Source: a virus. Taken from it: 64,000 bases of DNA. Of the stretch, positions 1 to 37,760 are shown one piece after another. Under the pieces are notes generated by a model. That model was not told the origin of the DNA, made no database searches, and saw only the letters and a program-made list of their open reading frames with translations. How positions within the stretch are numbered: the first letter of the stretch is position 1; each line of letters starts with the position of its first letter. Made by a program: the position numbers and the translations under genes. The stretch is from positions 1-64,000 of the IMG/VR virus record IMGVR_UViG_3300015189_000003; one strand, written 5' to 3'.

Positions 1-3000
1 CCTCAAACAACTTCGTCTGCCCAGGAGCATCGCCGAGGCCGTGGAATAAAGCCTCTTGCTTTCCACCGCTGGCCTTCGGCTTCTCTTCGGGCGGAGCTTT
101 CGGCGGCTGGTATTCGCCGGGCCGGGCGAGGGAGAATTCTTCTTTTGGTTTCTCTTCGGGCTTGGCAATAACCCGGTCGGAATGCGAGTCGGCAACGACT
201 ACCTTTATCTTTGCGTCGCCGCGTTTGATTGCAGCTTGCAGCGAGTGATTGCCGTCAACGACTAGCATTTGCCGCCCAGGCTCATGAGTGATAACGACGG
301 GATTCAGGTCGCCGCTTTCGGCCTTTGCATCGACCGCCTTCGGGTCGACGCTGTTGCTTGCCCGTAGATGCCCGGATTCCAGCATTGCCGCCAGCTTTTT
401 TACATCCGCCTCGCCATGCTCAAAGCCGCCTTCCACGCCAAAGTTTCGGGCGTAGCGGTCCCAGTCTCGTTCCTTCGGTTGATTCGGCGACGCCCTGACC
501 AGATCGAGGACTTCATCGGCACTGGATTTTTCGCCAGATGCTTTGGTCGCTGGCTTCGCCGTCCCCTTCGGCGCAAACTCGCCCTTATTCTCCGGCATCC
601 CGCGCGGATGCTTCGATTCGTCAAACCCTATCTTCCCCTGCCCCTTGCTGTCGTCCGGCCCGATATGCCGGAACGATCCAGACCGGTCCCGGCTATGCTT
701 GGGCTCGTGGTAGGGCGTCTTGTCGGTCGATTCCGTCCCGTGATGGTCGTAGCCGTCGAAAATGCCCTTCTGGCCGGGCGTGGACTTGAGTTTCTTGGCG
801 AATAGCCGCAATTGGTCTTCTTTGTCGGAAGGCGACGGACGAGACTTAGCCTCTTCCGCCAGGATTTCTTTCAGACGGTCGGCATCCTTCGCCCGAGCCT
901 CTTCGCCTTGACGGTCTTTGTACTCTTGCAATTTCTTTTTAATGTCCCAGTCGTCGGACGGCACAACGCCTTTCACCCTGGATGATTCCGGCAAGACTTC
1001 ACCAGGGACATAGGCGTCGCCTTCTTCCCATATGTCGCCGAGGTCGGTCGCCTGCTTTTTAGTCAGTCCGAGGTAGGCCAATGCCGTTTCGTTGTGATTC
1101 CGTGCCTTCATTGGGTGCCCAGCCACAACCGATTCAATCCCGCGATGGTTCTCAGGGACTTCGACTAAATCACCCATGCGATTGCGGACCTTGTTCGGCT
1201 TATACGGCTTCTTTTTGCCAGCCTTACCGGGTGCCTTCTCGCTTTCGCCGTGGACCGGCATGAACTCTCCACCCTCATACCACTTGCCGTTGACGTTCGA
1301 TTTCATGCCACCTTTTGGGGCGTGCGTCCATTCGATTGCGCCGTATTTGTGGACGGCATACCCATCCCGCCATCTCGCTGCAAACGGCACCGATTCCTCT
1401 TCGTCACTTGGCGGATTGGCCGCTTCGTGCTCTTTCATTTGCCGGATTGCGTCGTCGGCAAACGACCAGTATTCCGGCGAGTTCTTGGGTGGAATGCCGG
1501 TCCCGCCGTCGTCGTCGGACTTGAGGATTTCCCAGGCGGCGTCCTCAATCTCTTGCGGGCTTGCGTCTGGCGATACGCCGAGTTCCGGATGCTCCTGAAA
1601 GACCATGTACGTCTCGTCGCTCAGTTCCTTCTCGTCGTTGTTTTGAGCGGCGGCAGCAGACTTAAAGCCCGAATGAGCCCGCAGCGCCCGGACGCCTTCG
1701 GCGTACCCTTCGGGCTTCTTGTTCGGCGAGTTCATGCCTTCCGTCTGCCAAACATGGTCGGCGAGGTCGGCGTACTCTTCCGGCTCGATGCCGTGCTTCT
1801 TCGCGCCTTCCGCGACCATGGCGTCGGGCTTGACGGTCGGGGCGCGTTCTTTGCGGCGAGCCTTACGCCCGAGTGCTTGCTTTACCGCCTCGTGCGTGTC
1901 CTTTTCCATATCGGGAATCGCGTTCTTGCCGTGCGCAAGGTCGCGAGCCGTCCCAAGGACGGATTTCAAGTCTTCCGGCGACTTGATTTGCCCGCGGTCG
2001 ATTGCCTCTTGAATCGCGTTGACGTTTCGCGGGTGCGTGTGCAAATCGGCATCGACCAAACGCCGTTTGACGGACGACTTCCAGGCGTCCGGGTTGGTTT
2101 TCTTCTCGCCCTTCTGCCCGAGCGTCCTCGGCTTCGCCAGGGCCGCGTCAGACGGCGGAACGTAGCCGCCTTGTCCGGTCGGTGCTTCCGCCAGTCCGGA
2201 CTTGTGCAGGGCGTCGTGGGCGGCCTGAATGGCCGAATGGACGGCGGGCGAATGGCCGCTTAGCTGCTGGTGCGCGTCCGCCATCGCCGCCTTGACTTCG
2301 GGACCGTGGACAGCCGCCGAGTGATGGTCCGCCAAAGCCTCGTGGTGGACCGCCTGCGCGGCCAGGGAAGCCGCCTTGGCGTCGTCCGGCTCGTTGGCTG
2401 CCGCCTTGCTTAGAGTCTCGTGGAGAGCCTTGTGGTGGGCGTGGGAGTCTTCCCGCGGTTGGTTCGCTTCCGCGATGCTTTCCGGCGTGCCGAACTTCGG
2501 CCGCTTCGGGTCGATGCCTTGCGTCGGCGCGATGACCTTCCCCGGGTCGATTCCGAACTTCTCGCGCAAGAGCTCTTCGTCGGTCGGCGGTCCCTTGGCG
2601 GCTGCAGGTGCTGCGCCAGCTTTCGCGGGCTTATTGCTCTTGTCGTGGTGCTTGGCGGCCAGTTCGTATTCGCGAAACACCTTCCGCTTGTGCGTCACGT
2701 ATCGCGACCAGGCGGCCAAGTCCTTCGCGTCCGCACCGTTCTTGCCGGCGGCGTCCATGCCTTGAACGGCCGTCTGCCATTCGGCGTGCGCCTTGTTGGA
2801 ATTTTCCCGATGGGGATTAAAACCGGCTGCAAACGGCGAATCGCCAGCCGGATTGACCGGCGGAGGGGCGGAATTGTCCTGAACGGGATTGGCAGGCGTG
2901 ACGTTGGGGGCGGCCGAGGGTGTTTCGTTCGCTACAGGCCCGGCTGGACCGGTTGCGGGCGAGGGTGCGGCTTGGGGCGCGGGGCCGGCGGCGGCTGGAT

Positions 3001-5497
3001 TGGCTGGGGTCGGGGTGTTGGCTTGCGGAGGAGGTGCGGCATTGGGTTGGGCTCCTTGTCCGGTCCCCGTGCTCATCACCCCATTTTGCGGGCTTTGTGC
3101 GGGATTTTGACCGTTTTGAGGCTGTTTCGGTCCCCCTTGCTCATCGACCCGTCCGGGTGGGTTTAAGAGCGGCTTTCCACCCATGGCGGACTTGACGATG
3201 CCGGTCTTGCTCGTGTAATTCGCCTTGCCGTCCTGGCCGACAACGAAGCTGCCGGCTTCCGAGGCAAAGCCCGTCCGCCCGTCGCCAAAGTCAACGGCCA
3301 GGCCGCCGCCGACGTGCGAGCTTTTGAGCTTTGTGCCGTCTGGCATGATGATCGCGGGCCCGTCCCCCTTCGCGGCCGACTGGCCGAGCCACGAATGCAG
3401 CTTGGCGGCGTGATTCGGGTCGAGCTTCTGACTCGCCACTTCGCCGCCGGATTTGTAATCCGGATGCTCGTGGAAAGCCCGAATCAGACCGCCGGCTTGC
3501 TCGTCGATGCCGCCGAGGGCGTTAGAGACGTGCGAATGCCGGTCCTCGTGGGACGGTTCGAGCAGCGGCTGACCGGTCATCTTGTCGGCCAGCTTTTTGC
3601 GGTCTTGCTCGCCGGTCATCTTCGGAACCTTCGGGTCGATGCCGAGCTTCGCCATGGCCCCGGCTTCGTCCGGACCTCTTTTCGGTGTGCTGTTGGCGTC
3701 AACGGTGTCCGCGGTATGCGCGGCAACGTCGTCTTTGTCCTGGCGTTCCCACCTATGGTGAGCGTTCAAAACGTACGTATGCGAACCCTTCGTCATCGTC
3801 TCGCCGACTTGATGGCCGGTCTTCCACCGAGGGTCGGTGCCGAGGCCGGCGGCGTATTGCACCGGCCCCTTGGGCTGGTCCGGCTCGTCGTCCGGAGGTG
3901 ATTCGCCGCCACCTTCGTCCTGGCCCTCATCCCCCATCGCGGGCCCAAAGGCGTCCGCGACGTTCATTCCTTCGGCCCCAGGCTGTCCGGGCATTCCCCC
4001 GGGCATTCCACCTTGAGGGGCCATTTGCGGATTCTGCAAGACCTCGTCGTCGGCCGTCGGCATGGAGATACCGACCATGTCGGCAACATCCGATGCCTTG
4101 ATGCGCAGGCCCATGTCCCAGGCACCCTTGACCGCGGCGAGCTTCTTTTCCGCGTTTGCCGATTCGGTGTCGATGACGAAACGAAAATTAATGTCCCGCG
4201 CCCAGGCAAATTCCGGGTTGAAGTCCTGCAGATGCCGCAAGAGCTCCCGCGTCATCGTCTCTTCGAGCTTGACGGCGTCGTATTTGATGATCGCGTTCAT
4301 CGTCTCTTGATGAAGATTCGCGACTTCCGAGCCCATGCCCGTCGATTCCGCTTCGCTCGATAGCACCTGGCCGACGATGTACCGCTTGATTTGCCAGCCA
4401 AAAAACTCGTGGACGACCGACTTTAGGGCGTCGATGCCGGCCGTTGACGGCTCAATCCGGTCGATTCCGTAGCCGTCCATCGCTACGTCGCCAGGCGTCC
4501 GCGGCATCACGATTGCGTTTTGGTGGTTCTGGTTGCGGGCCATCTCCTCCATTTCCGTCTTGGCCGACGGATTGTGAGCCGGGTAATAATAAATCGTGAA
4601 GCCCGAGCCCGTCCGCTCGACGACTTCCATCAGGTGCGCCATCGTCTGCTGCTTTTGGAACCAGCACCAGTAAATCCGGTCGCGCACGCCGACACCGTGG
4701 ATCCGGCCGGCCGAAAGGGCGTCCTCGTAAACGCCATCCTCGATAATATGCCGGTGGAGAGCGATTCGAGCCCGTTCCCACGGTTCCAGGAAGTAAGCCG
4801 GCCCCTGGTCGGTCATCTCGATTTTGCGGTCGCCGGCAATCGCGTCGTGACGGCCGTAGGACAGGCCGACCTTGATGCCGACCTCGTCGCCGTTGTGCTT
4901 GCCGGTTCCGTCGTCGTAGCGAAAGACGAGCTTGTCGCCGTTGATTGGCGACCACCGCTTGACGACGATTCGCTTCTTGCCCTTGATGTTCCGGAAGCCG
5001 TAGGCGTGCTGATTGGCGTAGCGGCCGTACCAAATCGCCTCGAGCAGGTTCCGCCGATATTCGGTGAAGTCGGGCGTCGCCTGCAAAATGTCCGTCAGGT
5101 CGTCGGCCATTTGCCGCTGGCGATCGTCCTTCTTGTCTTCCGGCTCGATATGCCAGTTGAGTAGCGCCGTGCCGCGCTGCCGAGCTTCCAGGCATTCCAT
5201 GATCGCGCAGTCGTTGCGCATGATCCTGGCTTGTTCCGGCCCCTGGCTGTAGGCAATGTCCGGATTGCGATAGACTTGGCTGAAGGTCGAATGCCGGCCG
5301 GAAAACGTCAGAATTTGCGGCAGCATGTCGCGGCCGAAGTTCGGTGGAACGCCGGCGATGCCGCGGGCCGGGTCGAGAGACGCCTTGCCGTCCTCGACGA
5401 CGCGCGCGTATTTCTTGGGTAGTCGCTGGCCGGGCTTGTACGTCTTGCCGCCGTGCCGAAAACCAGAGGGGGGGGCGACCGGGTGGTTATTTTTCAT
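1..5497 (-). CDS. Mu-like (DUF935) portal protein fused to a giant C-terminal extension; 3' end outside window
   Basis: One frame stays open from the ATG at 5497 to the left edge, at least 1,832 residues without a stop. Residues about 50-485 read as a DUF935/Mu gp29-like portal, the dodecameric head vertex ring for DNA entry and exit; such portals are usually 400-550 aa. A Gly/Met/Pro linker (about 490-540) follows, then an unrecognised domain (about 540-775), a Pro/Ala/Gln-rich disordered stretch (about 776-900), a His/Ala-rich helical part (about 930-1100), further unknown sequence, and a segment with the HPRGMPENKGEFA motif seen near minor-head regions of other phages (about 1565-1640). 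At about 1725-1767 lies a ParB/sulfiredoxin-like core (NPVV, VVDGNHS). A hairpin module lies just upstream of the start. The portal call is firm; the role of the extension is unknown. It may carry minor-head or injected-protein functions. Confidence 0.85.
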   Translation of the reverse strand, partial: MKNNHPVAPPSGFRHGGKTYKPGQRLPKKYARVVEDGKASLDPARGIAGVPPNFGRDMLPQILTFSGRHSTFSQVYRNPDIAYSQGPEQARIMRNDCAIMECLEARQRGTALLNWHIEPEDKKDDRQRQMADDLTDILQATPDFTEYRRNLLEAIWYGRYANQHAYGFRNIKGKKRIVVKRWSPINGDKLVFRYDDGTGKHNGDEVGIKVGLSYGRHDAIAGDRKIEMTDQGPAYFLEPWERARIALHRHIIEDGVYEDALSAGRIHGVGVRDRIYWCWFQKQQTMAHLMEVVERTGSGFTIYYYPAHNPSAKTEMEEMARNQNHQNAIVMPRTPGDVAMDGYGIDRIEPSTAGIDALKSVVHEFFGWQIKRYIVGQVLSSEAESTGMGSEVANLHQETMNAIIKYDAVKLEETMTRELLRHLQDFNPEFAWARDINFRFVIDTESANAEKKLAAVKGAWDMGLRIKASDVADMVGISMPTADDEVLQNPQMAPQGGMPGGMPGQPGAEGMNVADAFGPAMGDEGQDEGGGESPPDDEPDQPKGPVQYAAGLGTDPRWKTGHQVGETMTKGSHTYVLNAHHRWERQDKDDVAAHTADTVDANSTPKRGPDEAGAMAKLGIDPKVPKMTGEQDRKKLADKMTGQPLLEPSHEDRHSHVSNALGGIDEQAGGLIRAFHEHPDYKSGGEVASQKLDPNHAAKLHSWLGQSAAKGDGPAIIMPDGTKLKSSHVGGGLAVDFGDGRTGFASEAGSFVVGQDGKANYTSKTGIVKSAMGGKPLLNPPGRVDEQGGPKQPQNGQNPAQSPQNGVMSTGTGQGAQPNAAPPPQANTPTPANPAAAGPAPQAAPSPATGPAGPVANETPSAAPNVTPANPVQDNSAPPPVNPAGDSPFAAGFNPHRENSNKAHAEWQTAVQGMDAAGKNGADAKDLAAWSRYVTHKRKVFREYELAAKHHDKSNKPAKAGAAPAAAKGPPTDEELLREKFGIDPGKVIAPTQGIDPKRPKFGTPESIAEANQPREDSHAHHKALHETLSKAAANEPDDAKAASLAAQAVHHEALADHHSAAVHGPEVKAAMADAHQQLSGHSPAVHSAIQAAHDALHKSGLAEAPTGQGGYVPPSDAALAKPRTLGQKGEKKTNPDAWKSSVKRRLVDADLHTHPRNVNAIQEAIDRGQIKSPEDLKSVLGTARDLAHGKNAIPDMEKDTHEAVKQALGRKARRKERAPTVKPDAMVAEGAKKHGIEPEEYADLADHVWQTEGMNSPNKKPEGYAEGVRALRAHSGFKSAAAAQNNDEKELSDETYMVFQEHPELGVSPDASPQEIEDAAWEILKSDDDGGTGIPPKNSPEYWSFADDAIRQMKEHEAANPPSDEEESVPFAARWRDGYAVHKYGAIEWTHAPKGGMKSNVNGKWYEGGEFMPVHGESEKAPGKAGKKKPYKPNKVRNRMGDLVEVPENHRGIESVVAGHPMKARNHNETALAYLGLTKKQATDLGDIWEEGDAYVPGEVLPESSRVKGVVPSDDWDIKKKLQEYKDRQGEEARAKDADRLKEILAEEAKSRPSPSDKEDQLRLFAKKLKSTPGQKGIFDGYDHHGTESTDKTPYHEPKHSRDRSGSFRHIGPDDSKGQGKIGFDESKHPRGMPENKGEFAPKGTAKPATKASGEKSSADEVLDLVRASPNQPKERDWDRYARNFGVEGGFEHGEADVKKLAAMLESGHLRASNSVDPKAVDAKAESGDLNPVVITHEPGRQMLVVDGNHSLQAAIKRGDAKIKVVVADSHSDRVIAKPEEKPKEEFSLARPGEYQPPKAPPEEKPKASGGKQEALFHGLGDAPGQTKLFE

Positions 5498-5573: not shown

Positions 5574-5699
5574 TACGATCGCCAGAATGTTAAAAAGTCA
5601 GTGTCGCCACGAACGTCGGCCCGGTCCCCGCTTTCCGGTTGTACAAAATGCCGTCGTGAAGTCTTTTTAGGATGCAGGTACTGACTACGCTTGCAAAGT

Positions 5700-5772
5700 A
5701 TCCACCGGCGGGAATCGAACCCGCAAACGCCGCTTTGGAGGCGGCTGCCTTCCCATTTTAGGCTACAGTGGA
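5700..5772 (-). tRNA. tRNA-Trp (anticodon CCA)
   Basis: The minus strand folds into a full cloverleaf. The 7-bp acceptor is UCCACUG/CGGUGGA (one G-U pair); the D-stem is GCC/GGC; the anticodon stem GCCGC/GCGGC closes the loop CUCCAAA, giving anticodon CCA; the T-stem is GCGGG/CCCGC with loop UUCGAUU. There are 72 paired-frame bases plus a U discriminator; the 3' CCA is not encoded. The U discriminator is unusual for bacterial tRNA-Trp, where G is normal. It lies between the portal leader and the next operon. Confidence 0.9.
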
Positions 5773-5844
5773 CAAAAAGCCCCTTACGGGGGCCAGTCGC
5801 CGCGGCAAAACGCAACGCGGAAACTACCCGGCATAATCCGGGCG

Positions 5845-6270: not shown

Positions 6271-7584
6271 TCAGTTGAACAGATAATTTTTCTTATTGGC
6301 TTCGCGGCGTCCGTTGATAATCGCGACGTGTTCGGCTTCAAGTTCGACGCCTACGCATGGAATCCCGGCGTTATCGCAGGCAATGAGCGTCGTCCCGCTG
6401 CCGGCGAACGGGTCAAGGATGCGATTCTCGCCCGGCATCGTGACCAGCTTGACCAGATATTCCATGAGCTTTAGCGGCTTGACGGTCGGATGCGTGTTGC
6501 CTTCGCCCCGGTCGGACTTGGAAGCTTTGGCGCAGTAGAAGAAGCGGGCGGCGCTGCCGGAGTCGAGACGCCGCGCGCCGGGCTTCATTGCGAAATTCGT
6601 CCCGCCTTCTTCGGCATACCGTGTTTCTTGCGACGGTTCGCCGACGCGATTCATTGCCCCGTAGACATTGCTTGTTTTCTTGCTTGGGGCCGAATTGCTA
6701 ATGTCCGCCAACTGCCCAGGGGCGGACGGAAACCCCGCCAGCACTTCTTCGCTTCCGTCGCGAATGACGTTCGCTGGCCAGCGGCCGGAATCCGAGCCAG
6801 TCCGCGAAGGCATCGACGCCCCGCCGTGATAGCCCATATCGGCGGACGGCCCCTTTCGCTGGACGATGGTTGGCTCCGTCCCCACCCTGCACCCGTCGAT
6901 ATTCAGCGCCCCGCAGCCATGCTCCAAGCAATTTGCCGCCACGGTCCCACTAAGGGGCTTGCGGGCGACGATGACAGGCTCATAGGCGGGCTTGAGGGCG
7001 GTTCCATAGCCGGACCAAAGTTTCGCGGCGTCGGTTGCGGCAGTCGTGATATTGGCAATCATCCGCTCGCCATTGTCCCGCTTGTAGTTGTCGCCGCGAA
7101 TGTCCGGCCCAACGTCGCGCGTCCCAGTGACTTCCCGCTCCGCTCCCGCCGCCTTATCAATCGCCTTGCTCACATCCAGCGACTTCGGGAATCCGCTCCC
7201 GTAAATCCACATGATGCAGTCCCGAATCTCAAACCCGGCATCCTCGATAGCGCAGCAAATTCGGTGATAGGTCCGTGTGCCGCCAAAAGCGAGTAAATGA
7301 GCGCCGGGCTTGAGGACGCGCAGGACTTCCGCCCAAGTTTCAGGACGCATGGCAACGTCGCCGCCGTCCCAGGCTTTGCCCATGAAGCCGCCGGACTTAT
7401 GCCCGCGTCCAGCCTTGTTGGTCGGACCCTTTGGGCCGCCGCTGTCACTGGAATGCTTGAACGACGAATAATCGACGGAGAGATTCCCGCTCGTCAAATG
7501 ATACGGCGGGTCAGTCACGCAAGCCGTGAAGCTGTCCGCTTCGAGCGTCGGCAGAACATCGAGCAGGCTTCCGTGGTGGAGCAC
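6271..7584 (-). CDS. Site-specific DNA methyltransferase (N6-adenine or N4-cytosine)
   Basis: Transfers methyl groups to exocyclic amino groups of DNA bases, most likely protecting phage DNA from host restriction. Motif IV DPPY is near residue 25 and the AdoMet-binding motif DPFAGSGTT is near the C-terminus, the DPPY-before-FxGxG order of beta-class enzymes. A long central insert of about 200 residues probably holds the target-recognition region. I place the start at a GTG at 7584 that overlaps the upstream TAG stop (TAGTG) and sits just before the conserved fold; the frame is open 63 codons further, but that part is a shadow of the upstream gene. About 437 aa. Specificity cannot be read from sequence. 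Confidence 0.88.
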   Translation of the reverse strand: MLHHGSLLDVLPTLEADSFTACVTDPPYHLTSGNLSVDYSSFKHSSDSGGPKGPTNKAGRGHKSGGFMGKAWDGGDVAMRPETWAEVLRVLKPGAHLLAFGGTRTYHRICCAIEDAGFEIRDCIMWIYGSGFPKSLDVSKAIDKAAGAEREVTGTRDVGPDIRGDNYKRDNGERMIANITTAATDAAKLWSGYGTALKPAYEPVIVARKPLSGTVAANCLEHGCGALNIDGCRVGTEPTIVQRKGPSADMGYHGGASMPSRTGSDSGRWPANVIRDGSEEVLAGFPSAPGQLADISNSAPSKKTSNVYGAMNRVGEPSQETRYAEEGGTNFAMKPGARRLDSGSAARFFYCAKASKSDRGEGNTHPTVKPLKLMEYLVKLVTMPGENRILDPFAGSGTTLIACDNAGIPCVGVELEAEHVAIINGRREANKKNYLFN

Positions 7585-7808
7585 TACGCCGCCGCCTTTA
7601 CAATTTGGTCGAAGAGCACCCGAGCAAACCACTTGCTTCGCCCGCTCCCATCCTTCCCCTTGGCCGAGACGGTCCCGCGATTCTGCCCGCGGCCGCTTTC
7701 CATCCCGACCGCCACCGGAATCGGATAACAAATCCTCTTGGGCGGCTCCGTCTTCCCGCCCGCCCTCAGCCACTTCGCCACCTTCTTACACTGACTCTTC
7801 GTGTGCAT
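7584..7808 (-). CDS. Small basic hypothetical protein
   Basis: A 74-residue ORF. The ATG at 7808 is preceded by the box AAAAGAGGAGATGAAGGCG, nearly identical to the one before the gene upstream, which decides the start. Rich in Lys, Arg and Gly with a KWLRAGGK stretch; no known motif. Its stop overlaps the GTG start of the methyltransferase, so the two are translationally coupled. A DNA- or RNA-binding accessory is possible but not shown. Confidence 0.6.
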   Translation of the reverse strand: MHTKSQCKKVAKWLRAGGKTEPPKRICYPIPVAVGMESGRGQNRGTVSAKGKDGSGRSKWFARVLFDQIVKAAA

Positions 7809-11006: not shown

Positions 11007-11140
11007 CGCTCCCACCCCTCTAAAAGTTCCATCCGGCTCAGACGGCCTTCCATTCGCCTAAGTTCTCTGTACTGCACAGACGCCAGCAAGGTCAAAGCCG
11101 CGATCGTCGCCAGCAAAACGCCGATTACGATTTCTTTCAT
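11003..11140 (-). CDS. Tiny membrane protein with cytoplasmic helix
   Basis: 45 residues. One hydrophobic N-terminal helix (residues about 3-21, VIGVLLATIAALTLLA) followed by a charged amphipathic tail. ATG overlaps the terminase stop (ATGA). Layout (membrane anchor plus coiled coil) is compatible with a holin-like or spanin-like protein, but no family motif is visible. Confidence 0.58.
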   Translation of the reverse strand: MKEIVIGVLLATIAALTLLASVQYRELRRMEGRLSRMELLEGWER

Positions 11141-12570
11141 GTCACACTTCCCCTAACAGCATGTACGCCGAATCTCCGACCGTCCGTTTGAATCTTGTAG
11201 CCGGTCGGCGAGGCTTGCTTCGTCCGAATGCGGCTCGTGTAGAGCGCGTATCGCAAGGCGTCGCAGGCGTGGTCTTCCACCTTCATCGGCTCGTCGCTTG
11301 GCGAGCGAATCGACCCGCCGTCCGGATACCGATAGCCGAGGATTTCGCGGATGAGATTCGCGCACTTATCAAAAATGAACAGTTGCGGCTTGCCGTCCCC
11401 TTGGACAATCATTTTGCCGCGGACGTACTCGATTCCCGCATTGACTTCTTTGGCGGCCGGCGTGCAATGGATGCCGTACTGGCTCAGTTCCGAGCGGACT
11501 TGCGGGTCGTGGTCGCTGTACGTCGCGCCGAACCACGGCTGACTCTCCCACACTCGCTTATTGATTTCCCGAGCGTGGTCGGCAAGTAGCGTCTGGTTGC
11601 GATACCACTCGTCATAAACGTAATGCCGGCCGTCAGGATCCCGGGCAATCCACAGGCAGCAAAATGAATTGTTAAACCCGAAGTCGATGCCGCGAATTCG
11701 CATCCAGCCGGCCGGAATCGTGAACGGCTCGATAACATGAATCTTCTTGCGAAATTCCTTGTAGACCTGGCCGGCGAGGGCCGTAAAGCGGCCGATGGTC
11801 CGCAGTTCGCGCATCTCTTCCGGCACCGTGGCGAAAAAATTACGCTTCCAGTCTTCGGAGATGTATGGATTCTTGAGGGTGTTGAGGTGATACCACGCCC
11901 ACCCAGGCGGACACTCGTCATACGCAGCAGGCCACTCAGGATCGCGGCACTCGATCGGCGTGAAGTCTGCCCACCCAGGCGAGTTGTAGTCTCGGCAGCG
12001 GCCTTTGATTTCCAGCAGAAGGTGGTAGGGAATTTCCTCGTTGCACCAAAAGCCACCCACCGACTCGGCTTTCATCGACGAGATGCCTTGCTCGTAAGAC
12101 TTAAACTCCAGTACCCATCCTATTTTCCCTGGCATCGTCGGATGCTTCAGCAGCACAGACCGGGGTCGCCGCAACTTATGATCGTGCCATCGAATGTCCG
12201 CAATGTCTTGCTGCGGTATAAGCTGCGAGAGCTTTTCGCCCCAGCAAACATTCGTGACCTGGTCGAGCTTTTCGCCAATGATCCAGAATGGACAGCGCTC
12301 GCGCGGAGGAGGGCGATTTTTAACAAAGCGAGCGGTCTTTAGGGCCGCGGCCAGCGTTTTTCCCGACCCTGTCCCGCCAAGGCAAATCGCAAAATCACTC
12401 GTGTCGTCTTCCACGAATGCCGTTTGCTCATCGTATTCGTCCGGACAATCCGGCCTTGTCGAGAACGTATAAAACGGGTGGGTCAGCAAGGCATGGGCGC
12501 GCTCTTGGTCCTCTCGCGAGCCTCGCTCAAAAATGGCTTTAATTTGATCGGAAGTCAGAGCTGTTGCCAT
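11137..12570 (-). CDS. terL: Terminase large subunit
   Basis: 477 residues from the ATG at 12570. The packaging motor: an N-terminal ATPase with Walker A GGTGSGKT (about residue 67-74) and a Walker B-like GGFWCNEE with the coupling Glu, and a C-terminal RNase H-fold nuclease with GIDFGFNN (first catalytic Asp) and DHACDALRYA near the end. Length is usual for the family. An in-frame start 33 nt upstream overlaps the HNH gene; I prefer the internal Met, which heads a typical N-terminus. Followed by three overlapping tiny ORFs. Confidence 0.93.
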   Translation of the reverse strand: MATALTSDQIKAIFERGSREDQERAHALLTHPFYTFSTRPDCPDEYDEQTAFVEDDTSDFAICLGGTGSGKTLAAALKTARFVKNRPPPRERCPFWIIGEKLDQVTNVCWGEKLSQLIPQQDIADIRWHDHKLRRPRSVLLKHPTMPGKIGWVLEFKSYEQGISSMKAESVGGFWCNEEIPYHLLLEIKGRCRDYNSPGWADFTPIECRDPEWPAAYDECPPGWAWYHLNTLKNPYISEDWKRNFFATVPEEMRELRTIGRFTALAGQVYKEFRKKIHVIEPFTIPAGWMRIRGIDFGFNNSFCCLWIARDPDGRHYVYDEWYRNQTLLADHAREINKRVWESQPWFGATYSDHDPQVRSELSQYGIHCTPAAKEVNAGIEYVRGKMIVQGDGKPQLFIFDKCANLIREILGYRYPDGGSIRSPSDEPMKVEDHACDALRYALYTSRIRTKQASPTGYKIQTDGRRFGVHAVRGSVT

Positions 12571-13303
12571 CGGAAGTTTTTCTCGCGTCCTCCAAATAAG
12601 CAATGCCGCGACGCATTAAGCTGGTGTCGTCGCCAAACTGCCCCAGGGCCGTATTGCAACGGAAGCAAAGCAAGCCGCGAACCATCCCGGTTGCGTGGCA
12701 GTGGTCAACCACCAAAATCCCACGCTTGGTGTCAGAAGCGGCAACCCCGCACATCTTGCAGGCGTTTCCTTGCTCGATGTTCAGCCGGTCGAACTCTGCC
12801 GCGGAAATTCCATAGCGGTCGCGCAAGTGTTGCAATCTGGCCTTCTCGCGCCGACATTCAAGGCAATGGACTTGGCGGCCTCCCGGAAGTCTCTTGTTGA
12901 GCCCAAAATCAGAAACAGCTTTGTCTTGCAGGCACCCCTTACATCGCTTTGATCCGCCGGCAGTGGGCGGCGCGGAGTTTTCCGCCATTATTCTGCTTGT
13001 ATATTTTTCAACATGGCTGGCAAACTTGTCTTTATTGGCTGCGTACCGATTTCTAAACTTCTCGTTGTAAGCGGCACGGTCTTTAGCCCGCTGCTCGCGG
13101 CACAGCGCGGCGTACTCCTCTTTGTTTTGCTGATAATGCCTTCTCCCGGTCGCTCGCAGAACATCCCGGTTTGCTTCGGCCCAAATTGCCGTGCATGATT
13201 TACACCGATAAACAAAGCCGCCTTTCTTTGTGCGGTCCCGATGAAACTCGCTGGCCGGCTTCTCTGTTTCGCACTTGCTGCAAACTTTCGTTGTTGTTTC
13301 CAT
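12539..13303 (-). CDS. Endonuclease VII-type HNH nuclease with zinc ribbons
   Basis: 254 residues. Two CxxC pairs near the N-terminus (CSKCETEKPASEF, CKSC), another pair around residue 120 (CKGC...CLEC), then the recombination endonuclease VII core: CKMC, VVDHCHATGMVRGLLCFRCN, which supplies the His-Me catalytic and zinc ligands. Such genes behave as free-standing homing endonucleases inserted next to terminase or structural genes. Start at the ATG of METTTK; a TATAAT lies 9-14 nt upstream, so it may have its own promoter. Overlaps the terminase start region by about 30 nt. Confidence 0.88.
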   Translation of the reverse strand: METTTKVCSKCETEKPASEFHRDRTKKGGFVYRCKSCTAIWAEANRDVLRATGRRHYQQNKEEYAALCREQRAKDRAAYNEKFRNRYAANKDKFASHVEKYTSRIMAENSAPPTAGGSKRCKGCLQDKAVSDFGLNKRLPGGRQVHCLECRREKARLQHLRDRYGISAAEFDRLNIEQGNACKMCGVAASDTKRGILVVDHCHATGMVRGLLCFRCNTALGQFGDDTSLMRRGIAYLEDARKTSDGNSSDFRSN

Positions 13304-13322
13304 GCCCACATTATACGGACGT

Positions 13323-13409
13323 TTAGGAAAGCGCCCATGCGGCTTTGCGCCCCAACCTCCGTCGCGTCAGTTCCCCGAGCCACCAGTCGAGCCAGTCGAG
13401 TAGGGTCAT
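13323..13409 (-). CDS. Tiny amphipathic peptide
   Basis: 28 residues, Trp-rich (LLDWLDWWLGEL) with a basic C-terminus. ATG overlaps the stop of the membrane protein above (AAATGA). Could associate with membranes. Too short for family assignment. Confidence 0.4.
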   Translation of the reverse strand: MTLLDWLDWWLGELTRRRLGRKAAWALS

Positions 13410-13609
13410 TTCTTCACCTGCCCTTCGCGACTCACCCACACCGGCTCGCTTCGCCCCGGAACCACCTGCTGCGAATATCCGCCTTCGGTCAGCATCTTCC
13501 ACTTGTTGTAGTGGTACATGCTCGTCGGCACCGTGATTGCCGACACCAGCGATACAATCCCAACGACAATCACCAAGACCGTCGAAAACACAAACGTAGT
13601 TTCTTTCAC
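13406..13609 (-). CDS. Small membrane protein
   Basis: 67 residues with one N-terminal transmembrane helix (FSTVLVIVVGIVSLVSAI) and a polar tail with YHYNKWK. Overlaps neighbours on both sides by 4 nt, part of a run of four tiny ORFs, three of them membrane-anchored (13323-13876). Function unknown. Confidence 0.6.
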   Translation of the reverse strand: MKETTFVFSTVLVIVVGIVSLVSAITVPTSMYHYNKWKMLTEGGYSQQVVPGRSEPVWVSREGQVKK

Positions 13610-13701
13610 GCGCTACACCTCCCACTTACGAACCCCAGAAGATAGAAACCGACCGCCAGCCAGCTTGCGACAATCCACAGGTGGAGGGCGAGGTCATTCA
13701 T
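13606..13701 (-). CDS. Tiny membrane peptide
   Basis: 31 residues, nearly all one transmembrane segment (WIVASWLAVGFYLLGFVSG). ATG at 13701 lies inside the end of the upstream ORF. Translationally coupled on both sides. Confidence 0.5.
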   Translation of the reverse strand: MNDLALHLWIVASWLAVGFYLLGFVSGRCSA

Positions 13702-13876
13702 CGCAGTCTTCGCAATCACAGCAGTCGCCGAACTCGTCGTCTTCGAATCGCAACACGACTTCACGCGGGGCGCGAATCGCCGCGCAGATGCTGTCGGTCG
13801 CAAGTCCAATCGCCCATCCGATAAACCAAAAAACCAGCCAAATCGACACCGTGAGAAAAAACAGTTCGCCGTTCAT
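13694..13876 (-). CDS. Small membrane protein with Cys/Asp-rich tail
   Basis: 60 residues. A long aromatic hydrophobic helix (residues about 5-25), then an acidic tail with DCCDCEDCDE that could bind metal. Coupled to the tiny ORF below. Confidence 0.55.
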   Translation of the reverse strand: MNGELFFLTVSIWLVFWFIGWAIGLATDSICAAIRAPREVVLRFEDDEFGDCCDCEDCDE

Positions 13877-13878
13877 CC

Positions 13879-14127
13879 CTATACCCTCTTTCTCAAAATT
13901 TGCAGTTGTCGGAAGTTGCCGCAGTCTTGCTCAATTTGCTCTTTGCGGGCCGCGCCTTCGGTATCGAACCGGCGGACAGACCGCGGGTCGGCGGCCGCTT
14001 CGTCGAGGTCGAGCATGTCGCCGTCAACGGCCAGGACGTGGTCGCAGTCGGCATCCGCCAGGATGTAGCCGTCCTTGAGGGGCGAGCGTAGCGGGCGGTG
14101 TTTGCCTTCGGGGGCCAAGGTGCTCAT
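13879..14127 (-). CDS. Hypothetical protein
   Basis: 82 residues from ATG 14127, preceded by AGGAGGATGC. Acidic middle (DADCDHVLAVDGDMLDLDEAAADP), basic C-terminus. The start overlaps the stop of the gene above. No family recognised. Confidence 0.55.
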   Translation of the reverse strand: MSTLAPEGKHRPLRSPLKDGYILADADCDHVLAVDGDMLDLDEAAADPRSVRRFDTEGAARKEQIEQDCGNFRQLQILRKRV

Positions 14128-14339
14128 GCATCCTCCTTCTGTCCGTAATCGGGTATGTAAACGTCCGTCAGTTCGCATTCAAAATAAAACCCGTCGCCGT
14201 GTTCCGCCGAAACGCTATATCCGACCGAGCCGCTTGGCCCGAGCCGGACGGCCGTTACCATGCCCGGCGATTCGTCGGAAGCGACCTTCTGGTAGACGAT
14301 GTCGCCGATCCAGAATTTGGTTTCGATGGAGCGTTTCAC
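14124..14339 (-). CDS. Hypothetical protein (GTG start)
   Basis: 71 residues beginning at a GTG within GGGGGAGGTGAAGTGA, where the upstream stop overlaps. Sequence (KFWIGDIVYQKV, GMVTAVRLGPSG) suggests a small SH3-like beta-barrel, as in many phage 'YfdQ/KOW-like' proteins; this is only a fold guess. Confidence 0.55.
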   Translation of the reverse strand: MKRSIETKFWIGDIVYQKVASDESPGMVTAVRLGPSGSVGYSVSAEHGDGFYFECELTDVYIPDYGQKEDA

Positions 14340-14632
14340 TTCACCTCCCCCAGCGCCTTCGCCGTTCGTGGATAGCCCAGCCGGCAGAGCAAGTCTGCCA
14401 CCAGCCCGACGGCACAATCAGTTTGGGCCATGATGCCCGCGGCCTCGTGCGCGTCGAGCGTCGCGTCGCATGGCGATTGCCAGGGCAACGTATGGACGAC
14501 GACGTCGAACCGTTCGGCCAGGTCGGCGGCCTGCGCGGCGACGTCTTCGCAGGGCTTCCGCCAGAGCCAGACGGTTTCACCCGGCAGGGGCGGCGGCTGA
14601 ATGGCGGCGTATTGGGCGGCCAGGTTGGTCAT
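14336..14632 (-). CDS. Hypothetical protein
   Basis: 98 residues, start at ATG 14632 overlapping the stop of the coiled-coil gene above. Residues 15-95 alternate helices and strands and hold FDVVVHTLPWQSP. No motif recognised. Confidence 0.5.
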   Translation of the reverse strand: MTNLAAQYAAIQPPPLPGETVWLWRKPCEDVAAQAADLAERFDVVVHTLPWQSPCDATLDAHEAAGIMAQTDCAVGLVADLLCRLGYPRTAKALGEVK

Positions 14633-15243
14633 GCCAGGGCCTCCTTGGCTTTGGTGTACCGTTGCCGCAGGCTCAACACCGCATCGACGGCCGGCGAGCA
14701 GCCGGTCCACGACGCGCCGTCGCCTTTGGCGATTCCTTCGCAGGCTTTCAGGTGATTTTGTGCCAACGCAAGTTGGCCGTTCATGGTGTCGCCGCGCTTC
14801 TTTTCGTACTCATAATCCGCCCGCAGCTTGCGAACGGCTTTGACCGCGATAGACTTCGAGTCCTCGTTGTCCACCGGTTCGCCGCGCGCGATTGCCGCAC
14901 AGTCCCGCAACCGCTTGCAGCCTTGCGGGTCGGCGGGGACAAACACGCAAGACGGGTCGGGCACAATCGCCTGCGCCAGATCCCCCTTGAGCTTCGCGAC
15001 TTCGGCCCACAGGGATTCCGCGCGCTTAAGTTGGCCGTCGCCATACTCAAGATGTGATTTTGCCAGCGACTTCGCTTCATCCCTCTCCTTGCACACCTGA
15101 TCGACGACCGCTTGCTTCGCGGCCAGCCGCTTTTGCGCCGTCGCGTTGGCGGCCTTGAGTCGCTCGATTTCCTCGTCCTTCTCTTGGATAACCTCAGACC
15201 AAAGCCGGCCGACAATTGGAACGCAATGATAAATCGCTGCCAT
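14629..15243 (-). CDS. Coiled-coil protein
   Basis: 204 residues, mostly long charged helices with heptad spacing from about residue 20 to 90, then a Cys-containing middle and another helix. Typical of phage accessory or virion-assembly helpers, but no specific family. Sits between two hypothetical genes downstream of the small terminase. Confidence 0.55.
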   Translation of the reverse strand: MAAIYHCVPIVGRLWSEVIQEKDEEIERLKAANATAQKRLAAKQAVVDQVCKERDEAKSLAKSHLEYGDGQLKRAESLWAEVAKLKGDLAQAIVPDPSCVFVPADPQGCKRLRDCAAIARGEPVDNEDSKSIAVKAVRKLRADYEYEKKRGDTMNGQLALAQNHLKACEGIAKGDGASWTGCSPAVDAVLSLRQRYTKAKEALA

Positions 15244-15263
15244 CGCCTAATCCTCCTGAAAAA

Positions 15264-15842
15264 CTACTTGGTTTTCTTCCCCTTCTTCGCCGGCTCGCCT
15301 TCCACCGTGGGGGGCTCCGGATTCCACTCTTCGCCGAGCGGATTCACCCAGTCGCGACCATCGACCGCCCCGGGCGTTTTCGTGATCGAACCGGGATTGT
15401 CCAGCTCCATTTGCACCAAAGCCGGCAGCGTATAGCCGTTCCGGTCGGTGAAGTCGTAAATCGCGGCAATCTGCGAATCGGAACACTTCTCGACTTCGCG
15501 GAAATGCTGAATCGGCAGCAGCTTTTTGGCCGGCGGGGCCTCTGTCGCTTCCAAGCTGGTGACCATCGCTTCCCTGGCCGTCAAAAAGTCCATGTGGAAA
15601 TTCGGGTCAGCGTGATTTTCCCGCTTGTCGAACACGAGAAACTCCGACCGCAGTCGCGAAACGTAGATTTCCAAGACCCGGCAGTCTGACGGAATATCGC
15701 CATTGTCGAATTCGACAAGCAAATCCGTGACCGAGTCATACAGCCGCTGGTCGGCGTTCACCCGGTTTTCATCCTCTTGCCATTCCTTCCAGGCGGCGTC
15801 CGAGGCTTTCACGGCGGCAATCAGTTCGGCAGAGCGAGACAT
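15264..15842 (-). CDS. Hypothetical protein
   Basis: 192 residues; helical N-terminus, acidic centre, and a C-terminal tail rich in Pro, Glu and Lys (EGEPAKKGKK), likely disordered. Starts directly after the stop of the small-terminase-like gene, so co-expressed with it. Confidence 0.55.
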   Translation of the reverse strand: MSRSAELIAAVKASDAAWKEWQEDENRVNADQRLYDSVTDLLVEFDNGDIPSDCRVLEIYVSRLRSEFLVFDKRENHADPNFHMDFLTAREAMVTSLEATEAPPAKKLLPIQHFREVEKCSDSQIAAIYDFTDRNGYTLPALVQMELDNPGSITKTPGAVDGRDWVNPLGEEWNPEPPTVEGEPAKKGKKTK

Positions 15843-16373
15843 TTACTTTCCCTTTTGTTCCAGTTTTTCGAGAGCCGCGAGAGCTTGCTCGAGCATTTGC
15901 TCTTTGGGCAGGAATTGAATACCGCCAATGACTTCGACCTCTTGCCGCGGAATGACGTCGTCGCCGAACATCTTGCGGAGGTCGGCTTCGCACTTGCGAA
16001 CGAGTTCAATCGCCGCAAGGTCGGCGGTGTCGGTGTAATGCTTCCAGGCGACAGCCAGAGCGGCTTCGAGCCCGGCGCGACGCTCGTCGACGCGGGCCTT
16101 ATTGTCTTCGGCGGAGATTGCCGCGCGGTAAATCTGCCGCCCCCGCTCGATAGCACGATGGACATTTGTCAGGGGCTTGCCAAACATTTTGGCAATTTCC
16201 CGCATCGGGGTCCGCTTGAGATGCAGCGGCCAAACATCGGCAACAAATTCGAGAAATGCCGACTCGGAAGCAGCTTTTGCGGTCGATTTTTTCCTTGGTT
16301 TGCCCAATGGAATTTTCGGTTGCGTTCCGCCTGTTGGCGTTCCGCACGGCAGAATAAAGAAGCGGAAGCCCAC
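15843..16373 (-). CDS. Probable terminase small subunit
   Basis: 176 residues from a GTG at 16373. A helix-turn-helix lies around residues 55-85 (PMREIAKMFGKPLTNVHRAIERGR), followed by long oligomerisation helices and an acidic Glu/Gln-rich C-terminus, the usual plan of small terminases that recognise packaging sites. It lies upstream of terL in the same direction and is the first gene after a TTGACC promoter. No sequence signature makes this certain; a transcription regulator is the alternative. Confidence 0.55.
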   Translation of the reverse strand: MGFRFFILPCGTPTGGTQPKIPLGKPRKKSTAKAASESAFLEFVADVWPLHLKRTPMREIAKMFGKPLTNVHRAIERGRQIYRAAISAEDNKARVDERRAGLEAALAVAWKHYTDTADLAAIELVRKCEADLRKMFGDDVIPRQEVEVIGGIQFLPKEQMLEQALAALEKLEQKGK

Positions 16374-16391
16374 TGGCGTCCGTCTCTTTCG

Positions 16392-16421
16392 AGGTTAGCC
16401 GACTTTGCCGACCTGGGTCAA
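16392..16421 (-). promoter_or_regulatory. TTGACC-N18-TAACCT promoter
   Basis: Minus-strand -35 TTGACC (16416-16421) in the longer match ATTTGACCCAG, 18-bp spacer, -10 TAACCT (16392-16397). Predicted start about 16385, giving a leader of some 12 nt to the GTG of the small-terminase-like gene. Same element and spacing as at six other sites in the window. No hairpin module follows this copy. Confidence 0.7.
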
Positions 16422-16427
16422 ATCGGT

Positions 16428-16619
16428 TCACTGGCACTTGGCGAGGGCTTCCGCTATGGCCGTCCCTGGCGTCCAATCTTCCGCGTCCACCGCGTCCCGC
16501 AACTCCCGCAGCGTGGCCAGTTCCTCCAGCACAGCTTCGAGCAATGCCTGTTCGTGGTCAAAAAAGCAATAGCCCGCAATCTCGCGGAGGTCGGCAATCT
16601 GTTTGTCGGTGGCTGTCAT
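16428..16619 (-). CDS. Small helical protein
   Basis: 63 residues, acidic amphipathic helices (QIADLREIAGYCFF, LLEAVLEELATLREL). ATG overlaps the stop of the gene above (ATGA). No family recognised. Confidence 0.55.
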   Translation of the reverse strand: MTATDKQIADLREIAGYCFFDHEQALLEAVLEELATLRELRDAVDAEDWTPGTAIAEALAKCQ

Positions 16620-16807
16620 GGGGTTTGCTCCGGTTCATCTGGGAATTGTTCGGGAGGATATTGTTCCTCTTGCTGGCACTCTTCAATTTCTCGCTGCTCT
16701 TGTCGCTCCCGGTCGCGGCGCTGCATTGAAGCTGGAACAGACTCGGGAGAATGTCCAGCGTAATAGGCATCGTCAATCCGGTCATAGGAAATACGGTCGG
16801 TGTCCAT
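16616..16807 (-). CDS. Charged hypothetical protein
   Basis: 63 residues, N-terminal Tyr/Asp-rich and then a very polar Glu/Gln/Pro tail. The frame stays open upstream for about 20 more protein-like codons (YEADVFYEAYRRG) but has no standard start there; an ATG with AGGAGAGG immediately before it is used here. A non-standard upstream start is possible. Confidence 0.5.
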   Translation of the reverse strand: MDTDRISYDRIDDAYYAGHSPESVPASMQRRDRERQEQREIEECQQEEQYPPEQFPDEPEQTP

Positions 16808-21492: not shown

Positions 21493-22422
21493 CTAGCTGG
21501 TGCCTTCGACGTGCGCTCTTATGAACTTGGCCGCGACTTGCGGAACGATTGCATTGCCGTAACCCCGCAGGCGTCCCATTCGGGCGGGTAGCCCATGAGC
21601 CAGCGGGAATGAGCCGGGTTGAGCGGATACGCGGCGAGATCCATCTGAGCACTTAACGGCGATGGTGGGGCCGTTCCACTCTGGCACACCAGCTTGCATT
21701 GCAAATCCAACGAGTCCGCTACTCCCTTCGCCGCTCGGGCGATACTCACGCCATTGTTCTTGCTGTCCCGTGCCCGCGGAGTCGCCCAGGATTTGATTTC
21801 GAGAAGGCCAACGGCATCCGTGAGCGCCATTGAAAAATCCTGCCCACTCTGGCGTACTACCCGCCCCTTGTCGTTGACGGTTGCCTTGTTGCCGATGAGC
21901 GTTTTCGCTTCGTCCTTCGTCCGCGGCGTCGGCCACCCAGAAAATCCTATGTCGCCCGTGGGGCGCGCCTTCGCTCGCAGCAGGCAGACTCGCCGCCCCG
22001 ATGGCATAGCCGCATTCTTCCAGGTCAAGCGATACTCCATCGAGCCATTCAAGTCCGTCGCTGCTCGCAACTTGCTCTCCAAAGACCGTTGCAGGGCGGC
22101 ACTCCGCGATGAGGCGGTAGAAGTCTGGCCAGAGGTGTCTTTCGTCCATTTCGCCCGCTCGCTTTCCGGCGCACGAAAGCGGTTGGCATGGGCAGCTTCC
22201 AGTCCAAACGGGAACATCGTCTGCCCACCCTGCAAGTTGGAGGGCGTAGGGCCAGCCGCCGATTCCCGCGAAGAAGTGGCACTGGGCGTAACCGGCAAGG
22301 TCTTTCGCTTCGACTTCTTTGATGGAACGCTCATCGACGTAGCCAGGTGGAATAAGGTTCTGCTTTATCAGTTCTCGCAGCCAAGCCGCTGCCTTCTGGT
22401 CGAATTCGTTGTAGAAGTTCAT
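21493..22422 (-). CDS. DNA cytosine-5 methyltransferase
   Basis: 309 residues. Motif [13 protein letters not shown] (about 50-60), motif IV with catalytic Cys GSCPCQPLS (about 75-83), an altered motif [14 protein letters not shown] (ENV replaced by EQV), motif [14 protein letters not shown], and motif [16 protein letters not shown]. Methylates C5 of cytosine, probably for anti-restriction. Lies 8 nt downstream in transcription order from a chimeric ORF and ahead of the primase-helicase. Specificity unknown. Confidence 0.88.
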
Positions 22423-22667: not shown

Positions 22668-23978
22668 CTATTCTTTCATTGCTTGCCGCATAAGTTCAAC
22701 AAAAGCGACCGCGCCGCAGACCGCCACGACGCTGTTTCCGCTGCACCGAAGCTGGTCGGCTCTGCCCTCGTCCAAAAGCAATGCGGCATCCCCATCAACC
22801 AGCACACGAAAACCGGGTTCAAGCGCCGGGTAGAGGTGCGGCGGGATTTCGCTCCAGTCGGCAGAGGGTCCGGGGGCGAAGAGTGGGAGAACACTCCCGT
22901 TTCCGTCGCATGGGATAGGCTCGCTCCCCCGCTGCGTGATTCCAGGTCGGTCCACTTGTGGTCCTGGCTGTTGGGTGTCGGCCAGGCGTCCGCTTGATTC
23001 GCCAGTTGAATTCCGTGGTCTACTTCGCGCGGCAGGCTCGCCCTTTCGTGGGCCGCGGGAGTCGCCCATTGAGCAATCTGTGCTTTTAGGTTTGCCGCCC
23101 CCTCGTGGCTTTCCGTTGTTGCGTCGGCTCCCCCGCAGTTCCGCGGAGTCTGCCACATTCCCGCCACCGCCCCCGTCAGTGAATCCGTCGCCCCCGGATG
23201 GTTCCCGCAGCTTTCCGAGTCTTCCGAGCGAGGGGAGGGCCAAGTCATCGTGTCCCGAAACCGCTGGTATCCCGGTGGAACTTCGTCCCATGACTTGCAC
23301 TCCTTCGGAAGAATTCCCATCGTCATTTCGATGACCTGTTCCAATCCGAAAGCCGTCCCGTGGTTCTGATGGGGCTCGCCTTCCAAAACGATTGCCCCGC
23401 GGGAATTCCGATTTTGTGCCGTGCAGACAGTGGGCCAGCACAAAGCATCTTTCCCGCCTATGACTCGCGCCAACGCTCTCCGCAGTGACAAAGAGCGGGC
23501 TTTCGACCGTGTAACCCAATCGGCATAGTTCTTCTCCGACAGGTCGAAACCATCCTCCTGAAACCCAGGGAGGGACGTTTTCGCAGAACACCACGGCGGG
23601 CTGACACTCGGCAATGATTCGCAGGAACTGGACGATTGGCCCGTCGCCGTCTTCCCCGTGGCTCCTTTCGTCTTCATTGCCTTTTTGCTTCCCGGCGACG
23701 CTGTAGGGCTGACACGGCAGGCCAGCGCAGAGGATGTCCACCAGTCCGCGAAACGGCTTCCCGTCGAAGCCTCCCAGATCGCCGCACCAAATAGGGGCAG
23801 GCTCCAAGCTCGATTCTTCCATCCGGGCCAAGAGCGTGGCCGCGGCGTAACTTTCCCACTCAGCGAGACACGCAATTCGTGTTCGCTGTCCGAAGTATTC
23901 GCAGCCGAGGCGGACGGCTTCTTCGAGCATGCCGACGCCGCTGCAAAGTCCAAGCGTATTGATGATGGGATTATCCAC
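22668..23978 (-). CDS. DNA cytosine-5 methyltransferase
   Basis: 436 residues from a GTG at 23978, placed 1 nt after the helicase stop with GAGGAG upstream. Motif I LGLCSGVGMLEEAV, motif IV AGLPCQPYSVAG with catalytic Cys, motif VI VFCENVPP, motif VIII SHRRERCFVLAH, and C-terminal motif X CSGNSVVAVCGAVAFVEL. A roughly 200-residue Gly/Ser/Arg-rich stretch between VIII and X holds target recognition. Different frame shadows of similar length exist but lack these motifs. Second of at least three intact C5 enzymes here. Confidence 0.88.
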   Translation of the reverse strand: MDNPIINTLGLCSGVGMLEEAVRLGCEYFGQRTRIACLAEWESYAAATLLARMEESSLEPAPIWCGDLGGFDGKPFRGLVDILCAGLPCQPYSVAGKQKGNEDERSHGEDGDGPIVQFLRIIAECQPAVVFCENVPPWVSGGWFRPVGEELCRLGYTVESPLFVTAESVGASHRRERCFVLAHCLHGTKSEFPRGNRFGRRAPSEPRDGFRIGTGHRNDDGNSSEGVQVMGRSSTGIPAVSGHDDLALPSLGRLGKLREPSGGDGFTDGGGGGNVADSAELRGSRRNNGKPRGGGKPKSTDCSMGDSRGPRKGEPAARSRPRNSTGESSGRLADTQQPGPQVDRPGITQRGSEPIPCDGNGSVLPLFAPGPSADWSEIPPHLYPALEPGFRVLVDGDAALLLDEGRADQLRCSGNSVVAVCGAVAFVELMRQAMKE

Positions 23979-23979
23979 A

Positions 23980-31766: not shown

Positions 31767-32069
31767 TTAGTCCTTTTCGGATTCCGCGATCCAGGCGGCC
31801 TTGTGAGCGTCTTTCATTTTTCGAAAGTCAACCCATTTTTTAATCACGTAACTTTCGTGGTATGGAAACATGTCATCCACCGGGTCTAGGCCGACAATTC
31901 TTGACCACTCCTCGATTATTTCAGCGACAAGTGCGGGGCGTGCTAGCCTAGTCGAGTTAATGATGTTGTCGCTGCCGGGCTTTTTTCCGGACGCGACCCA
32001 TCGCGAGTAAACCAGGCATATCGCCCGGCACAGATAAACCGGGTCAGCCTCCTCGTAGTAGTGCCCCAT
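31767..32069 (-). CDS. Hypothetical protein
   Basis: 100 residues from ATG 32069, overlapping the end of the C5 methyltransferase by 26 nt. Helical; contains YLCRAICLVYSRW and KKWVDFRKMKDAHKAAW. No family recognised. Confidence 0.55.
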   Translation of the reverse strand: MGHYYEEADPVYLCRAICLVYSRWVASGKKPGSDNIINSTRLARPALVAEIIEEWSRIVGLDPVDDMFPYHESYVIKKWVDFRKMKDAHKAAWIAESEKD

Positions 32070-34360: not shown

Positions 34361-34614
34361 ATCGGCCCCCTAAACTCCGTCGCCGTTAGCACAAACTCAG
34401 CCGGCGAGACAAACTCGTCTTTTAATCTGAAACGCGCGAGTTCATTTAGCGTTTCCCGGTCGAGCGTCACGCGCCCGCCGGCGTACTTGGCAATTACCCA
34501 GGCCGCGACGTGCTTGTACGTCCACGGCAAGAGGTGAATCTCAGCCGTTGGCTTTCCACCCGAGGGCGGGCCCCCGGGCGTGACTTCGAGCGTCTTTTCG
34601 TAGAGCGGGGTCAT
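34357..34614 (-). CDS. Hypothetical protein
   Basis: 85 residues from ATG 34614, overlapping the protease stop. PGGPPSGGKP linker near the N-terminus, then a helix pair. No family recognised. Confidence 0.5.
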   Translation of the reverse strand: MTPLYEKTLEVTPGGPPSGGKPTAEIHLLPWTYKHVAAWVIAKYAGGRVTLDRETLNELARFRLKDEFVSPAEFVLTATEFRGPM

Positions 34615-35441: not shown

Positions 35442-35454
35442 GAGAACAATCCTT

Positions 35455-37668: not shown

Positions 37669-37760
37669 TTTCCGTCCTCACTCAGAAGCCCCAGGGAATC
37701 CAAAATCGTGTAATAAAGCAGCGCGGCGAATATCCACGCCTTTTGGTAGAGTTTTTTCAT
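37665..37760 (-). CDS. Tiny membrane peptide
   Basis: 31 residues with one helix (KAWIFAALLYYTILDSLGLL). Overlaps both the protease above and the lipoprotein below by 4 nt. Confidence 0.5.
   Translation of the reverse strand: MKKLYQKAWIFAALLYYTILDSLGLLSEDGK

Follow-up and report, generated by a model that had tools for sequence, protein, structure and literature searches.

A Mu-type portal protein that may carry a polyvalent-type effector as its C-terminal extension

What is to be made of a viral portal gene that continues, free of stops, far beyond the end of its portal domain? The question is raised by the window analysed here, a 64-kb stretch of DNA corresponding to bases 1-64000 of a virus record of 66,403 bases. 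The portal open reading frame (ORF) runs on the minus strand from an ATG at position 5497 and is stop-free to base 2, comprising 1832 codons; no stop is reached because the window begins at base 1 of the record. As a previous sequence-only reading had pointed out, it is the longest uninterrupted frame in the window, the next-longest having 843 aa. A tRNA-Trp gene (5698-5773, minus strand) is located immediately upstream of the portal gene.

The N-terminal domain is, by its sequence match and modelled fold, a Mu-type portal, for which a twelve-fold ring is predicted. It comprises residues 1-495 (4013 to 5497, minus strand) and is recognised by its match to PF06074, its AF2 fold and its identity to the portal of the closest relative. 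The Portal_Mu family (PF06074) matches residues 92-477 (4067-5224, minus strand) with an E value of 7e-40 and a score of 137.8 bits, the curated cut-off being 23.9, and model positions 7-336 are covered. The AF2 model, built from 35 related portals, folds as a portal as far as about residue 495; disorder follows, with pLDDT below 50 from residue 506. The best match among solved folds is the portal of JBD30 (Z 20.8, rmsd 5.1 over 325), followed by that of Mu (Z 19.8). The Portal_Mu match and this fold bear out the expectation of a normal portal domain of about 485 residues at the N-terminus.

The gene order terminase, portal, protease/scaffold and capsid, as in Mu-type portal phages, is present. 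All these genes are on the minus strand: the terminase large subunit (11137 to 12603; PHROG 2, E 2.5e-28), the major capsid protein (58995 to 60059; PHROG 1005, E 7.5e-8) and a putative prohead protease plus scaffold gene (60665 to 62056), assigned by synteny with the related loci L003, L017 and L034. The latter has no match to any Pfam family, and H34, H71 and S125 are among the residues invariant in eight homologues. In the relatives this gene comes after the portal/polyvalent gene; in the window's record its adjacency to the portal is inferred across the record ends, and it is directly visible in L003.

Other genes of the window deserve mention. Several DNA methyltransferase-like genes are on the minus strand (6271-7773, placed between terminase and portal, 21493-22422, 22668-24011 and 32044-32940), as is a pair of similar HNH endonuclease-like genes with zinc fingers, one by the terminase (12539-13309) and the other by the protease gene (62163-62987). 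A DEAD-type helicase frame (23980-26511, minus strand) contains an apparent intein in its DECH (Walker B) box, between VIIDE and CHLVP (CFTGETLV...VHN|C). Genes for trypsin-like and papain-like peptidases are found at 34611-35609 and 37757-38572 (minus strand), and 40762-42102 (minus strand) encodes a 446-aa protein built of 'TPGVLALTTTKFAPTVATPRAV' repeats. The plus-strand gene at 45790-46734 encodes a protein whose N-terminus is that of a type IV prepilin (MRKAFTLIEMTIVIAIIAILAG). Proteins of this kind are common in planctomycetes, which may hint at the host. Since only two of 392 genomes of the phylum of a Schlesneria MAG contain this portal, a planctomycete host is no more than a lead.

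Different observations indicate that the extension of about 1,340 residues is real. Given the base composition, 1,337 codons would stay free of stops by chance with a probability of about 10^-17. The remaining two frames of this strand contain 30 and 31 stops, and a coding pattern (GC by codon position) is maintained along the whole ORF, the Pro-rich bin 801-900 excepted. The closest relative, L003, is an independent contig whose portal is 62% identical to that of the window and which carries the same portal-extension fusion in one stop-free ORF of 2,706 residues. A BLASTP alignment of both proteins extends to residue 1395 with 38% identity overall. Since L003 shows the same fusion, aligned through this residue, a lost stop is excluded as the cause of the join. 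Besides L003, five other relatives of 48 have portal ORFs of 1,484 to 2,025 residues. The sequence-only estimate that twelve arms would add more than 1.5 MDa also holds: twelve copies of the extension to residue 1832 amount to 1.7 MDa, or 2.7 MDa if an ORF at the far end of the record (see below) is included, the L003 equivalent being 2.9 MDa. Arms of this size, twelve to a vertex, could get in the way of packaging.

The extension, encoded throughout on the minus strand, is an alternation of linkers and modules. A Gly/Pro/Asp-rich linker, defined by composition and low pLDDT (residues 496-560, 3818 to 4012), is followed by a first module (residues ~563-775, 3173 to 3811; phmmer E 1e-21 and 4e-6), which is common to the giant portals L003 and L016 and has no family name. 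Composition also defines a Pro/Ala/Asn/Gln linker (residues 781-900, 2798 to 3157) and an Ala/His-rich stretch with 27% A and 14% H (residues 1011-1110, 2168 to 2467). Beyond them are the middle modules (residues ~1130-1395, 1313 to 2110), alignable to L003 by BLASTP, an inter-module motif called HPR (FDESKHPRGMPENKGEFA, residues 1625-1642, 572 to 625), of which HPRGMPENKGEFA begins at residue 1630, and a stretch weakly resembling ParB/sulfiredoxin (residues 1726-1776, 170 to 322). The make-up claimed by the earlier reading stands with respect to the low-complexity linkers, the Ala/His-rich stretch and HPRGMPENKGEFA. The ParB fold is less secure: the matches to PHROG 8071 (E 8e-4 to 3e-3), 620 and 1033 are weak, the arginine of the usual 'GxHR' is replaced by serine (GNHS), and the AF2 model, built with two sequences, has a pLDDT of 44, too poor to be used. 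No module in residues 1-1832 exceeds any curated polyvalent-domain cut-off, and neither LPD domains nor an MPTase/metallopeptidase were found in the window protein. InPase matches neither residues 1-1832 nor the far-end ORF. MuF was also tried as the identity of the extension and gave no match. Internal translation starts, which could separate the proteins, were discarded as well: a single weak Shine-Dalgarno site was found, at codon 1370, off any joint.

A profile search of viral contigs yielded 48 related loci, in which complete portal frames range from 484 to 2,716 aa (a few of the 48 records are cut or frame-broken). Several enzyme-type domains are fused to these portals with scores above the curated cut-offs: InPase (L003, L040, L043, L053), ART-PolyVal (L023, L028, L034), topoisomerase IB (L022, L058), NUDIX (L017), PAPS reductase (L028) and methyltransferase (L003). 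Weaker matches are those to sigma-70 region 4 (L037) and S-adenosylmethionine lyase (L023). The single ORF of L003 thus contains portal, InPase (1.7e-44) and methyltransferase, and L028, L023 and L022 likewise have several effector-type domains on one polypeptide. Other relatives have portals of 484-553 residues, several of them with a polyvalent protein as the next gene. For instance, the short portal of L015 is followed by a 1,577-aa polyvalent gene with InPase and sigma-70 regions 2 and 4 (12072-16805, adjoining the portal), whose sequence suggests a packaged sigma factor, and that of L018 by a 1,846-aa polyvalent gene with InPase, LPD1, LPD3 and LPD5; ART is also found in such next genes. 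L053 is intermediate, with a portal-InPase fusion and then a separate gene of 1,674 aa.

That relatives should have portals ending near residue 490 had been put forward as grounds for rejecting the long portal. Many relatives do end there, but the nearest one and others are fused, and this coexistence of short and fused forms indicates a labile fusion and not an artefact. The parts are separate genes in some relatives, the polyvalent part often being the next gene. For a tree built from 42 portal domains (quick method), portals were labelled long or short, long meaning an extension of 200 residues or more (an arbitrary cut). The tree requires 12 changes of label, no fewer than eight of them on starred branches. 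Since this label is not clustered beyond chance, the trait can be considered labile. MuF (PF04233) was found in none of 30 records (the window's record and 29 related ones), and the polyvalent part occupies the usual MuF place.

The most plausible reading of the extension is that of a polyvalent protein joined to the C-terminus of the portal; phage proteins of this type are effectors with several domains that are packaged in the head (Iyer 2017). We estimate a probability of about three in four for the full proposal: a Mu-type portal continued in frame by an effector of polyvalent type that is carried into the head, the gene spanning the record ends with more than 2,600 residues altogether. 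The C-terminus of the portal, with the effector fused to it, would face the capsid interior, as this end does in solved portals. The JBD30 portal has its crown and wing domains inside the capsid (PMC11445458), and the C-terminal barrel of the E217 portal points into the head (PMC10329688); therefore, a C-terminal fusion would be placed inside by portal assembly itself. The portal dodecamer would nucleate the procapsid and bring about twelve cargo copies into the head, with no need for a separate packaging signal or a MuF protein. Whole or cleaved, the cargo could then act on the DNA packaged with it or, during infection, inside the host.

A version of this proposal, to which we give slightly less than an even chance, is that the protein is a polyprotein precursor cut between modules, perhaps near HPR, of which only some pieces would be packaged. 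The parts are separate adjacent genes in relatives, where some split portal and polyvalent genes overlap by a few bases, and in phage P1 both DdrB and DarA undergo processing ahead of packaging (PMC5512222). The distribution of HPR also favours this version. The portal proteins of the set contain 20 occurrences of the pattern [WF]xExxHPR..G[KE]F, all of them outside the portal domain. With a relaxed pattern, the density is about 20-fold higher in portal genes (22 in 41,474 residues) and large non-portal, polyvalent genes (13 in 25,624) than in the other 700 genes (5 in 197,736). In the fused proteins the motif lies between modules, and several separate polyvalent proteins have it close to their N-terminus (residues 13-70). 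It looks like a module-boundary marker; its use as a cut site is a guess.

How far the fused protein extends depends on the other end of the record. Beyond the window, at 64067-66403 of the record (minus strand), there is a polyvalent-type ORF of 778 codons, open at the contig end. Its ART-PolyVal match (E 0.005) is below the cut-off, and an 'AL..GK..P..VLADYPDL' repeat, shared with L015, L022, L044 and L058, occurs in it twice. In L003 the protease/scaffold gene comes directly after the portal/polyvalent gene, and here the far-end ORF occupies the corresponding side of the protease gene; from this position the contig is taken as a circularly permuted genome cut within the portal gene. The far-end ORF is probably the rest of this gene. 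It could instead be a separate polyvalent gene, the fused portal stopping soon past residue 1832, a possibility that we consider appreciable though clearly the less probable of the two. Both L028 and L023 carry a fused portal and another polyvalent gene, and the record ends, as they stand, do not share a frame, which means that either bases are missing or two genes are present. Continuity is for this reason argued from gene order, which from portal to protease is as in L003, and from size, the sum of 1832 and 778 being close to the 2,706 residues of L003. Moreover, 67 in-frame coding codons precede the first ATG of the far-end ORF, which runs off the contig. No direct repeat was found at the record ends, exact scans of viral contigs with the sequence of either end gave no match, and a search with the far-end ORF as query returned no relatives.

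A broader proposal, in our opinion unlikely, is that the portal of this phage clade serves as a general cargo platform. Swappable HPR-bounded modules would be made with the portal as one polyprotein, brought into the head in sets of twelve by portal assembly and released by the head protease where the modules meet, replacing the MuF route. Even less probable is that the extension serves assembly, as an internal scaffold or arm of the portal cut off by the prohead protease before packaging, its effector resemblance being secondary. The putative protease/scaffold gene is next in the conserved order, the low-complexity stretches (Ala/His and Pro-rich) have a structural look, and the termini of the Pa193 portal are absent from the maps. 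However, the relatives have catalytic domains at this place (ART, InPase, TopoIB, NUDIX), and the extension varies from none to more than 2,200 residues within one clade, unlike a scaffold required for assembly. Finally, although the ORF extends to the contig end of one metagenomic record, a sequencing error that removed a stop, or an assembly artefact that merged two genes, can be dismissed for the portal-extension join in view of the independent L003 fusion, the five further relatives above 1,480 aa and the continuous coding pattern.

Portal fusions to small effectors (PMC5512222, PMC9503650) and portal-MuF fusions (PMC7302621) are already known. In the literature searched there is no precedent for portal extensions of this size and variety of domains, for their repeated joining and separation, or for MuF being absent. 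The idea of head-packaged effectors would become stoichiometric and testable, the cargo being covalently bound to a dodecameric ring, and the repeated switching between fused and split states links polyvalent proteins to the portal more tightly than gene neighbourhood alone.

With respect to known systems, the closest solved folds to the portal domain, those of Mu and JBD30 (PDB 9khx/9knu and 8rka), belong to proteins of 512 and 526 residues that, unlike the window protein, lack an effector extension. Polyvalent proteins (Iyer et al. 2017, PMC5512222) are also multi-domain and portal-adjacent, with ART, InPase, ParB, LPD and methylase modules, and portal fusions to PBECR and 2H were already reported in that study; together with a 2022 NAD survey (PMC9503650), the list comprises PBECR, 2H and Nudix. 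Here, in contrast, the portal itself is the N-terminal module, a relative reaches 2,716 aa, most modules of the window protein have no family name and no metallopeptidase was found in it. In this portal-terminase phage the presumed polyvalent part is encoded with virion genes, being fused to the portal and having the terminase and capsid genes as neighbours. MuF polymorphic toxins (Jamet et al. 2017, PMC5576092) carry C-terminal effector domains on a head protein encoded just after the portal, and in some Microbacterium phages MuF is fused to the portal (PMC7302621), whereas the window's record and 29 related ones lack MuF and the cargo is attached to the portal itself.

A small version of the portal-effector arrangement seems to have gone unnoticed in well-studied Pseudomonas phages. 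Of the 457 phage records matched by the InPase domain of the clade, 292 are from Pseudomonas. The 765-aa portal of the Pbunavirus E215, an orthologue of the E217 and Pa193 portals, contains PF06381 (112-459) and InPase (635-753) according to Pfam; this protein (L062, 1084-3381) is annotated as 'hypothetical protein', and many relatives as 'minor head protein'. The Pa193 portal (PDB 9b41, 765 aa) aligns nearly end-to-end with that of Serratia phage Hera, which has the same InPase. Since the E215 and Hera portals match InPase, cultured phages possess portals with a C-terminal enzyme-type domain. In the structure passages on these phages, residues 529-765 of the Pa193 portal have no density (PMC11042391), the E217 model ends at 528 (PMC10329688), and InPase is unmentioned; a literature search for portal and 'pyrophosphatase domain' found no paper. 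It is predicted that E217 and Pa193 carry an enzyme-type domain at the inner end of the portal, in the part unseen in the cryo-EM structures. The Pbunavirus portal gp19 of E217 and Pa193 (765 aa; PDB 8fvh, 9b41) would thus resemble the window protein in having an effector-type C-terminal domain on the head-interior side, but it belongs to a different portal family, PF06381, and bears one small domain where the window protein bears at least 1,340 residues.
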